Assembly (NCBI GenBank): GCA_016930485.1
Contig: JAFGGP010000052.1
Location: forward strand, 1 to 34,741
From: Candidatus Omnitrophota bacterium
GTDB lineage: Bacteria > Omnitrophota > Gorgyraeia > JAFGGP01
Length of the DNA stretch: 34,741 bases
Direction: 5' to 3'
Shown here: positions 4,621-34,741 of the stretch, piece by piece
How the letters are laid out: the number at the start of each line of letters is the position of its first letter
Position numbering within the stretch: position 1 is the first letter of the stretch
Position numbers and translations under genes: made by a program
The notes under the pieces: model-generated
Told to the model about the DNA's origin: nothing
Seen by the model: only the letters and a program-made list of their open reading frames with translations
The model's database searches: none

Positions 4621-4659
4621 TCCGTTTCGTCTGAGACGTTGCAGGGAGGCAAGACAGAG

Positions 4660-5049
4660 GTGGAGATTACCGAGGTCCGGATCTTTTTGAAGGAACATCC
4701 GGAAAACGACAGACTCAAGGCGTACGCAACAGTGACCTTTGAGAATGTCTTTGTCGTGAGAAACGTGAAGGTCATTCAGGGCACAAAAGGGCTCTTTGTG
4801 GCAATGCCCTCACGCAGAACCAAGGAGCCGTGCCCAAGATGCCAGAGCAGCAACGAAGTAAGAAGCAGGTTTTGCAATCAGTGCGGCAGTGCCCTGCCGC
4901 CGCCGCGGGAGATAAGCGGCAAGGATCGTGAATCCGAGCATAGGGATATTGCCCACCCTATCACCCTCGAATATCGGGAATATATACAAAAAAAGGTTTT
5001 AGAGGCCTACGAGTCCGAGAGGCATAAGACACAACCACCGCCTCGATAA
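4660..5049 (+). CDS. SpoVG family protein with inserted zinc ribbon
   Basis: SpoVG-like N-terminus (EITEVRIFL...LKAYATVTFENVFVVRNVKVIQG) and C-terminus (AHPITLEYREYIQKKVLEAYE); CPRC-x10-CNQC between; GTG at 4660 follows GGGAGG. Confidence 0.85.
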   Translation: MEITEVRIFLKEHPENDRLKAYATVTFENVFVVRNVKVIQGTKGLFVAMPSRRTKEPCPRCQSSNEVRSRFCNQCGSALPPPREISGKDRESEHRDIAHPITLEYREYIQKKVLEAYESERHKTQPPPR

Positions 5050-10027: not shown

Positions 10028-10255
10028 ATGAGAGGCACTCCACTACGTTTTAAGAAAAAGGTCTGCAGGCTGTGTGCGGACAAGGTAAAGTCGATCGATT
10101 ATAAAGAAATCGATATGTTAAGGCGTTTTACCACGGAGCGCGGGAAAATTTTGCCTTCCCGGTTTTCCGGCAATTGTGCCAAGCACCAGCGGCAGGTTTC
10201 TCAGGCAATCAAGAGGGCACGTATCGCTGCTCTTCTGCCGTTTATCAGTGATTAA
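10028..10255 (+). CDS. rpsR: 30S ribosomal protein S18
   Basis: [23 protein letters not shown]...[21 protein letters not shown]. Confidence 0.95.
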
Positions 10256-10261
10256 CATAGA

Positions 10262-10340
10262 TAGCTTCTAGCGGATAGCGATTAGCGATTAGATTTTTCG
10301 GTTTCTTGACTATACGCTAGCCGCTAATCGCTAAACGCTA
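10262..10340. repeat. TAGCGNN heptad-arm inverted repeat, copy 1
   Basis: Left arm 10262-10292 TAGCTTC TAGCGGA TAGCGAT TAGCGAT TAG; right arm 10310-10340 revcomp TAGCGTT TAGCGAT TAGCGGC TAGCGTA TAG; 17-nt loop. Confidence 0.9.
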
Positions 10341-10354
10341 AAAGAGGTTTGGTT

Positions 10355-10798
10355 ATGAAGATTATCCTAATCGAAGACATCGATTCATTGGGGCAGTCGG
10401 GGGATGTAATCGAGGTAAAGGACGGTTATGCACGGAACTACCTCATTCCCCGGGGTGCTGCCAGGCCGGCGACGCCGGGAAATATCCAGCTGGCCGAGCG
10501 TCTTAAACAGCAAAAGCAGACGAGACTGGAGAGGGAAAAGAAGGAGGTCGAGGAGTTTGCCGCTAAGATCTCATCGGTTTCGTGCACCATATCGGTCAAA
10601 GTCGGGCACGATGACAAACTGTACGGCGCTGTTACGGCGGCCCATATAGCGGATGCGTTGAAGCGGGAAGGTATCGAGGTTGACAAGCGCAATGTCGTTT
10701 TGGAAGAGCCGATAAAAAACCTGGGGGTATACACTATCTCCATCCATCTGCGTCCCGACGTGACGGCGAAGGTGAAGGTCTGGGTGGTGAAGGAATAA
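10355..10798 (+). CDS. rplI: 50S ribosomal protein L9
   Basis: MKIILIEDIDSLGQSGDVIEVKDGYARNYLIPRG. Confidence 0.96.
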   Translation: MKIILIEDIDSLGQSGDVIEVKDGYARNYLIPRGAARPATPGNIQLAERLKQQKQTRLEREKKEVEEFAAKISSVSCTISVKVGHDDKLYGAVTAAHIADALKREGIEVDKRNVVLEEPIKNLGVYTISIHLRPDVTAKVKVWVVKE

Positions 10799-10848: not shown

Positions 10849-10990
10849 AAACTCAATGACAAATGACAAATCCCAAAACCCAAATGAAATCCAAATCATC
10901 AAATAACCTAAAAAAGAATTTTTTATTTTAATTTGTCCTGTGGGATTAGGTGATTCATTTGAGATTTGGCATTTGGAATTTGGGATTACA
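10849..10990. repeat. AT-rich heptad-arm inverted repeat, copy B
   Basis: Left arm CAAATGACAAATCCCAAAACCCAAATG...; right arm 10957-10984 ATTTGAG ATTTGGC ATTTGGA ATTTGGG. Confidence 0.7.
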
Positions 10991-23263: not shown

Positions 23264-23790
23264 CCCAGCGGGCGCTGATTGTTATCGATATGCTGTATGA
23301 TTTTGTCGAGAAGGGCGCCCCCCTGGAGGTCCCGGGGGTAGAGACTATTATCCCGTGTATACAGCGGGAGATTGAAAGGGCCCGTTTGGAAGGAGTGCCG
23401 GTATTCTATCTGTGCGATGGGCACGAGGAGGACGATCCTGAGTTTGCGGCATGGCCCCCTCACGCGGTTCGGGGAAGCCGGGGCGCGGAGATTATTGCCG
23501 AGCTCGTCCCTCGTCCGGAAGACGTCATTATTTATAAGACGACCTACTCAAGCTTTTATAATACAGAACTCGAGGATATGCTGAGGAAGTTCGGCGCGAC
23601 CCGTCTGACTATTACCGGCCTATGCACCGAGATCTGCGTGCTGTACACCGCCGTGGACGCCTATATGCGCGGTTTTGAAGTAACAGTTCCTGACGGTTGC
23701 ACAAAGGGATTGACAGAAGAAGACCACCGGTTTGCCCTCAAGCAGATTAGGCACATATTAAAACCGGCACAAGTAGCGTCTAGCGGATAG
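23260..23790 (+). CDS. isochorismatase-family hydrolase, probable nicotinamidase
   Basis: ALIVIDMLYDFVEKGAPL; KTTYSSFYNTELEDML; GLCTEICVLYTAVDAYMRGFEV. Confidence 0.88.
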   Translation: MTQRALIVIDMLYDFVEKGAPLEVPGVETIIPCIQREIERARLEGVPVFYLCDGHEEDDPEFAAWPPHAVRGSRGAEIIAELVPRPEDVIIYKTTYSSFYNTELEDMLRKFGATRLTITGLCTEICVLYTAVDAYMRGFEVTVPDGCTKGLTEEDHRFALKQIRHILKPAQVASSG

Positions 23791-23843
23791 CGTTTAGCGA
23801 TTAGATTTTTTTCTATACGCTAGCCGCTAATCGCTATACGCTA
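23774..23843. repeat. TAGCGNN heptad-arm inverted repeat, copy 2
   Basis: Left arm 23774-23804 TAGCGTC TAGCGGA TAGCGTT TAGCGAT TAG; right arm 23813-23843 revcomp TAGCGTA TAGCGAT TAGCGGC TAGCGTA TAG; 8-nt loop. Confidence 0.92.
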
Positions 23844-29016: not shown

Positions 29017-29148
29017 CACAATATACAAATTCCAATAACCAAACAATGCACAATAATCAATGACTAAAATCACAAACAAAAAAAGAAAAAACTATTTTGA
29101 TTGTTTTAATTTGTTTGTAATTTGTGATTTGTAATTTGGAATTTTATA
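29017..29148. repeat. AT-rich heptad-arm inverted repeat, copy D
   Basis: Right arm 29114-29148: TTTGTAA TTTGTGA TTTGTAA TTTGGAA TTTTATA; left arm carries complementary CAAATTCCAATAACCAAACAA. Confidence 0.75.
29019..29052. repeat. 34-nt repeat, second copy of 2606-2639
   Basis: CAATATACAAATTCCAATAACCAAACAATGCACA; 2 differences of 34. Confidence 0.8.
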
Positions 29149-31178: not shown

Positions 31179-31200
31179 CAAAAGTTTAAAATTTTTACTT

Positions 31201-31226
31201 GTGACATGTGTCTTGTGTCATGTGAC
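31201..31226. repeat. GTGNCNT heptad tandem
   Basis: GTGACAT GTGTCTT GTGTCAT GTGAC: 7-nt period. Confidence 0.65.
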
Positions 31227-31235
31227 TAACATTTT

Positions 31236-31265
31236 TATACGCTAGCCGCTAATCGCTACACGCTA
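31236..31265. repeat. TAGCGNN heptad single arm, copy 3
   Basis: Revcomp TAGCGTG TAGCGAT TAGCGGC TAGCGTA TA. Confidence 0.88.
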
Positions 31266-34374: not shown

Positions 34375-34618
34375 CAATGCAAAGATCGGGCAGGAAATCG
34401 GGGAGGGCCGGGGCGTCCTCATCATAGAGAAGGAGAGGTGTAAGGGGTGCCAGTTGTGTATCGGTGCCTGCCCGCGGGGGTGCCTCAAGTTGAGCGACAC
34501 CTTAAACAAGCGTGGGGTCCGCTCAGCCGAGTTTTATCTGAAGGACCGGTGCACGGGCTGCGCCCTGTGCGCGGTCATGTGCCCGGATGTGTGTATTGAG
34601 GTTAAGAAAAACAGTTAA
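34355..34618 (+). CDS. 2x[4Fe-4S] ferredoxin, delta-subunit-like of a 2-oxoacid:ferredoxin oxidoreductase
   Basis: CKGCQLCIGACP and CTGCALCAVMCP; start uncertain (TTG 34355 or ATG 34325). Confidence 0.82.
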   Translation: MPVTHNNNAKIGQEIGEGRGVLIIEKERCKGCQLCIGACPRGCLKLSDTLNKRGVRSAEFYLKDRCTGCALCAVMCPDVCIEVKKNS

Positions 34619-34647
34619 CGAGTTCTGTGAGTTCGCGAGTTTTTCTT

Positions 34648-34671
34648 TAGCGTGTAGCGGCTAGCGTATAG
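34648..34671. repeat. TAGCGNN heptad single arm, copy 4
   Basis: TAGCGTG TAGCGGC TAGCGTA TAG. Confidence 0.85.
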
Positions 34672-34697
34672 TGAATAAAATTGAAAACGATTGTTAC

Positions 34698-34741
34698 GGT
34701 TCGAGCCTGTCGAGAACCCTTTGGCTATGTTCAGCACAAAC
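34698..34741. repeat. fragment of a dispersed repeat (GGTTCGAGCCTGTCGAGAACC...TTCAGCACAAAC)
   Basis: Short inverted repeat GGTTC/GAACC; truncated by window end. Confidence 0.35.

Follow-up and report, generated by a model that had tools for sequence, protein, structure and literature searches.

TAGCG heptad hairpins in an Omnitrophota genome: probable hollow copies of an IVS-type mobile element

For decades, heptamer arrays have been reported in bacteria either as repeats without an explanation or as presumed regulatory sites. The intervening sequences (IVSs) of 23S rRNA have been regarded as orphan selfish sequences that encode a protein whose function is unknown; IVSs that are short and lack an ORF are known as well. 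To our knowledge, the widespread small protein family concerned, PF05635 (23S_rRNA_IVP or S23p, here IVP), has no known role. Known IVSs lie in helices 9, 25 or 45 of 23S rRNA, and those of Coxiella, Leptospira and Brucella carry an S23p/IVP ORF between terminal inverted repeats. In Coxiella, three GACAGAT heptamers and one GACAGAA heptamer precede the S23p ORF and the terminal stem measures 28 bp; the IVS RNA of both Salmonella and Coxiella is excised by RNase III, and these IVSs too are suspected of being mobile (PMC4990558). Cyanobacterial STRRs are degenerate intergenic 7-nt tandem repeats able to form hairpins, among them those between hupS and hupL (PMC2670836). The 'global regulator sites' (classes 1-3) and H4 heptanucleotide elements of Geobacter metallireducens consist of three to five tandem units of 7-8 nt, some positions of which vary; they occur in tens of copies, as pairs on opposite strands separated by variable distances (PMC2700814), and have been interpreted as IHF/HU sites. 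The intergenic TAACTGA heptads of Beggiatoaceae form 169 sets near start codons and recur in cyanobacteria and Bacteroidetes (PMC4679880); these arrays are mostly exact direct repeats in one orientation, for which a translational role was proposed. STRR hairpins, Geobacter repeats and TAACTGA arrays have all been described without a link to IVP, and our literature search, to which subscription journals were mostly closed, found no publication linking heptad repeats to it. MITEs and REPINs are short, dispersed, gene-less inverted repeats derived from a coding element.

The TAGCG element described here follows the plan of the Coxiella IVS, with heptamers upstream of an IVP ORF between terminal inverted repeats, but it lies in protein-operon spacers rather than in 23S rRNA, occurs in tens of copies that mostly lack an ORF, and has the core TAGCGNN. 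Its resemblance to STRRs is apt, as the original prediction had it; the supposed distinction, folding into hairpins, is none, since hairpin-forming STRRs had already been described (PMC2670836). What separates the two is that STRRs are described as tandem repeats, whereas TAGCG heptads form four-unit arms in inverted pairs and are tied to an IVP element. The Geobacter sites share the opposite-strand pairing and copy number but have other cores, and MITEs and REPINs share the dispersed gene-less form, but the TAGCG parent carries IVP, not a known transposase, and its arms are heptad arrays. We conclude, with a probability of roughly 0.7, that the hairpins studied here are hollow (ORF-less, MITE-like) copies of an IVS-type mobile element residing in operon spacers. 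This element appears to be related to STRRs, to the paired repeats of Geobacter and to the IVSs of 23S rRNA.

The window hairpins and the TAGCG family

The window is the whole 34,741-nt stretch analysed (contig JAFGGP010000052.1); its genome (G000) comprises 1.92 Mb in 57 contigs. The features discussed are as follows.

10028-10255, forward strand: rpsR (ribosomal protein S18; Pfam Ribosomal_S18), upstream of copy 1
10262-10292, forward strand: copy 1 left arm, (TAGCGNN)4TAG, 31 nt, first core mutated to TAGCT
10293-10309, no strand: copy 1 loop, 17 nt, T-rich
10310-10340, reverse strand: copy 1 right arm, 31 nt, inverted (TAGCGNN)4TAG
10355-10798, forward strand: rplI (ribosomal protein L9; Pfam Ribosomal_L9), downstream of copy 1
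23774-23804, forward strand: copy 2 left arm, 31 nt, four perfect heptads and TAG
23805-23812, no strand: copy 2 loop, 8 nt
23813-23843, reverse strand: copy 2 right arm, 31 nt
31240-31265, reverse strand: copy 3, single right arm between xseA and xseB, immediately 5' of the xseB ribosome-binding site
34648-34671, forward strand: copy 4, single arm of three heptads and TAG at the contig end, followed by TAGTGAATAAAATTG...

Both complete hairpins have the two inverted 31-nt arms (4 x 7 + 3 nt) and the loops of 17 and 8 nt that had been read from the sequence; one core of copy 1 is mutated to TAGCT. The arms, with 23 core pairs and 95.7% pairing, agree with the terminal inverted repeats of IVSs (stem of about 28 bp). 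The copies lie between protein genes, outside 23S rRNA, and we therefore term them IVS-type and not 23S rRNA IVSs. Both had been placed exactly between a stop and a start codon. For copy 1, 6 nt separate the rpsR stop (TAA, 10253-10255) from the left arm and the rplI ribosome-binding site follows immediately 3' of the right arm; at copy 2 the placement fails, as the upstream isochorismatase-like ORF enters the array and ends in frame at a TAG (23788-23790) within the left arm. The idea of a fixed core with a floating dinucleotide holds for the core, which is conserved, but the NN are not free: across copies, each position favours a particular dinucleotide.

We note two neighbouring features. 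A heptad-like array, GTGACATGTGTCTTGTGTCATGTGAC, occupies 31199-31227, shortly 5' of the single arm at 31240. The junction between the copy 4 arm and TAGTGAATAAAATTG recurs at several contig ends of G000; TAGTGAATAAAATTGAAAACGATTGTTACGGTTCGAGCC adjoins TAGCG arms at 34618-34741 of the window and at the ends of contigs C16, C43, C50 and C53, and this junction probably belongs to a larger repeat at which the assembly broke.

The copies are many. The window has 16 three-core matches (up to two mismatches) against 0.05 expected, and the genome has 67 exact three-core matches against none for the reversed control pattern; a 79-nt query gave 57 matches in the genome. No IS terminal repeat was identified as the source of the 7-nt period. 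The 16 two-armed copies in the fetched stretches mostly have four heptads per arm, ending in TAG, and the heptad that follows an exact pair begins with T, A and G in 97-98% but has C and G in only about 60%. Of the G000 arms with unequal linkers, 41 have four heptads, and seven more were scored as five because the terminal TAG happens to continue core-like. The peak at four heptads in arms with unequal linkers is found again in three further genomes (G070, G071, G014); arrays with identical linkers are spread over 3-21 units. The tandem heptamers that characterise STRRs are present; STRRs vary in unit number, which in TAGCG is fixed at four.

The (TAGCGNN)4TAG arm also occurs in the genome of an Aerophobetes locus (L080; G070), in CSMAG_2518 (G071), in Elusimicrobia and in other Omnitrophota, and the exact 31-mer TAGCGTATAGCGGGTAGCGTTTAGCGTATAG is common to four related genomes. 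Among class relatives, 16 of 59 have the TAGCG pattern, in very uneven numbers. Within one genome the linkers are position-specific, the list for the left arm differing from that for the right, and entire elements are found repeatedly with an unchanged series of linkers. In G000, many TAGCG copies are nested inside another inverted array, RGTTNNCG. Of 38 TAGCG matches in viral contigs, the majority have identical linkers; AA or AG linkers predominate among the remainder. No nucleotide match to the element was found in E. coli or plasmids.

Intact elements and insertion into operon spacers

In the ispD-ispF spacer of G071 (L187, 3750-4170), TAGCG arms enclose a complete 23S_rRNA_IVP ORF (PF05635, E 4e-38); a neighbouring site at this locus (site 3, 4649-4771) is a different repeat and was excluded from the TAGCG evidence. 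G070 has an intact PF05635 gene between TAGCG arms (L351; E 2.7e-38) that is 84% identical to the G071 copy, and in these intact copies the GTG start of the IVP gene overlaps the last TAG of the arm. PF05635 is located between inverted TAGCG arms not only in G071 and G070 but also in Mesorhizobium (L082) and Verrucomicrobia (L137). Another G070 locus (L179) retains both arms and the 5' and 3' remnants of an IVP ORF whose middle is deleted; judged by sequence, some elements are internal-deletion derivatives of the IVP-carrying element. The only solved structure matched by IVP is 2gsc, which has five chains and is described as a homopentamer (PMC4990558), and the profile of bAvd (PF22296) gives a weak match below its cut-off.

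The rpsR-rplI spacer measures 99 nt in the window compared to a median of 19 nt in the 21 class relatives in which it could be read; without the 79-bp copy, 20 nt would be left. In another clade, orthologous loci of G071 and G079, close relatives with 88-90% nucleotide identity, show precise presence and absence: TAGCG elements occupy the disA, ispD-ispF and lysC spacers in one genome and are missing in the other. The disA insert sits exactly between the stop TAA and AGGAGG with at most a few duplicated bases, and the lysC insert, a single case, has about 19 bp of target (AGGAGGGAACAATAATTGA) on both sides. At lysC only the spacer insertion counts: we considered and rejected the split aspartokinase of G071 as a gene broken by the element, since the kinase part ends there natively in relatives. 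In G071 and its relatives (L364, L366-L369) the kinase ORF stops around residue 244, and in G071 and G079 an ACT ORF is read separately 3' of it; G000 has a single ORF instead. The closest relatives of G000 compared are related at class level, so that the window copies have no nucleotide-exact empty site, and no IVP gene was found in the roughly 280 kb of G000 stretches read; the link of the window to the IVP element consequently rests on the shared 31-nt arm.

TAGCG copies lie between co-directional genes, inside operons and not at promoters. In most cases in G070, G071 and G014 the outer arm edge is -24 to +11 nt from the upstream stop codon; alternatively (G070, G071) it is about 14-31 nt before the start codon, immediately 5' of the ribosome-binding site. 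In G000 the nesting makes the distances to genes larger. A TAG of the array itself ends the upstream gene at many sites.

On this reading, the full element consists of a left arm (four degenerate heptads and TAG), a gene for an IVP/S23p, a four-helix-bundle protein of about 115 amino acids, and the inverted arm. Its copies insert into short operon spacers, from the stop codon to the next ribosome-binding site, where harm is presumably least, and in-frame TAGs of the arm can act as the stop for the upstream gene. A trans-acting factor, probably IVP itself, may recognise each arm by reading the TAGCG of successive heptads, and gene-less copies may be mobilised by factors provided in trans. RNase III would probably cut the transcribed hairpin, as it does in IVSs of 23S rRNA.

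Sequence variation and alternative explanations

Variation was measured on copies found by similarity and not by core. Minority bases make up 6.3/6.6% in the core compared to 25.7/28% in NN, a core that is about four times less variable, and its TAG and CG are equally conserved. Alleles common to at least two copies fall 5 in the core and 16 in NN, private ones 20 and 13 (Fisher p = 0.012). Shared variants being mostly in NN and private ones in both core and NN is the pattern predicted for a mobile family: propagating copies would need the core, and inserted copies would decay. The spacer comparison, the presence and absence between relatives, the pattern of variants and the link to IVP together support the proposal of a mobile or replicating hairpin, and we take the TAGCG family to behave as a mobile element.

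The other half of that proposal, a periodic protein-binding array, may apply to recognition of the element ends but not to a regulatory site conserved copy by copy. A dispersed array in which each copy binds a ribbon-helix-helix or other global protein reading heptads on both strands would account for the conservation of core over NN and for inverted pairs at variable spacing. Omega (pSM19035 parS), which recognises 7-bp WATCACW heptads, reads heptads as well, and the architecture closely matches the class 1-3 sites of Geobacter metallireducens (PMC2700814). We nevertheless consider it unlikely. Private mutations strike the core in 20 of 33 cases, roughly in proportion to the 74% expected by length and, few as they are (20 in the core), without significant depletion, so that no upkeep of individual copies is visible; the family includes many lone or broken arms, the presence of copies varies between close relatives, and they lie within operons and not at promoters. 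Much the same location, between co-directional genes and beside ribosome-binding sites, would suit a hairpin acting in processing, stability or attenuation of operon mRNA, as does strong RNA folding in six of six copies tested (z -4.5 to -6.5), and STRR hairpins have been proposed to stabilise or couple (PMC2670836). Any inverted repeat is expected to fold strongly, however, and across 12 elements none of the 23 core pairs had a compensatory change. Nor do the NN positions, for which covariation had been proposed as a check, pair with one another: standard pairs make up 30%, compared to 48% after shuffling. These results therefore give no indication of a conserved RNA fold; single-arm copies are abundant and there is no Rfam match, and a function in RNA seems to us quite improbable.

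A TAG every 7 nt places stops in all three frames of each arm, six per hairpin, and the hairpin could have been kept as a universal stop cassette. Many upstream genes do end at such a TAG (outward distances -3, -10 and -17), and the TAACTGA arrays of Beggiatoa hold stops too (PMC4679880), but within the core TAG is conserved no better than CG, and neither the ATTTGNN arrays of G000 nor the GGAGT and AGGGT cores that flank IVP genes need a stop codon; we see very little likelihood in this explanation. Slippage of heptamers without any mobile element fits a proposal for 7-nt repeats by Mrazek, cited in PMC4679880, and the pure heptad VNTRs that share the core in many genomes. It is hard to credit for elements whose unit number is fixed at four, whose adjacent linkers are unequal, whose arms are inverted and which recur entire with identical linker order.

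Two known kinds of mobiliser were also considered and rejected. Both TnpA_REP (Y1) genes of G000 (L223:1390-1968 and L224:1243-1500) are bounded by their own palindromes, unrelated hairpins without a TAGCG array, so that G000 has no TnpA_REP gene flanked by the same hairpin as in REP/REPIN systems. An IS630/Tc1-derived MITE was dismissed as no PF13358 (DDE_3) match was found in G000, G070, G071, G002 or G014; a TA target duplication would be indistinguishable from the TAGCG/CGCTA ends of the element.

IVP genes and other heptad families

Several of the IVP loci were fetched through the TAGCG pattern; the 16 taken from plasmid records (mostly cyanobacteria, also Azospirillum, Riemerella and others) were chosen with no repeat criterion, and neither they nor L444 came through that pattern. 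Lag-7 periodicity of at least 15/21 on both sides was found at 7 of these 16 loci compared to 2 of 142 control ORFs (p 5e-6); lag 7 is by far the most enriched, lags 4-6 and 8-11 each giving p 0.01 or weaker. Inverted flanks (at least 17/21) likewise occur at 7 of 16 IVP loci and 2 of 142 control ORFs. The cores around the plasmid IVP genes differ: GGAGT, AGGGT, AGTCA, AGGTG and AAGGT. A profile search gave nine more IVP loci, one of them inside a control plasmid, and every one has lag 7 on at least one side. On three cyanobacterial plasmids (L432, L433, L434) IVP genes lie within CRISPR-cas operons (cas6-cas4, cas10-cmr3), surrounded by repeat arrays in at least two of the three.

Omnitrophota that lack TAGCG have other heptad families, and G000 itself carries further four-unit families, such as inverted TCAGCNN pairs. 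Two of the latter (L157:1157-1210 and L150:1832-1880) have four heptads per arm and a loop of 0-1 nt. The window also has ATTTGNN arrays (5+2 period, three or four units) at 182-200, 10957-10982 and 29120-29138.

The intact IVP-carrying versions suggest an origin for the puzzling heptad repeats of bacteria. As a wider and more tentative proposal, which we put at somewhat below even odds, the degenerate heptad arrays of bacterial intergenic regions may largely be the ends of one very large class of IVP elements and their hollow derivatives, with pentameric IVP, which is distantly related to Avd, an accessory protein of retroelements, reading the heptads and driving movement. If heptamer arrays and 23S rRNA IVSs do form one class of element, the function of PF05635 would become directly testable, and many supposed regulatory repeats in operon spacers would have to be re-read as insertions.
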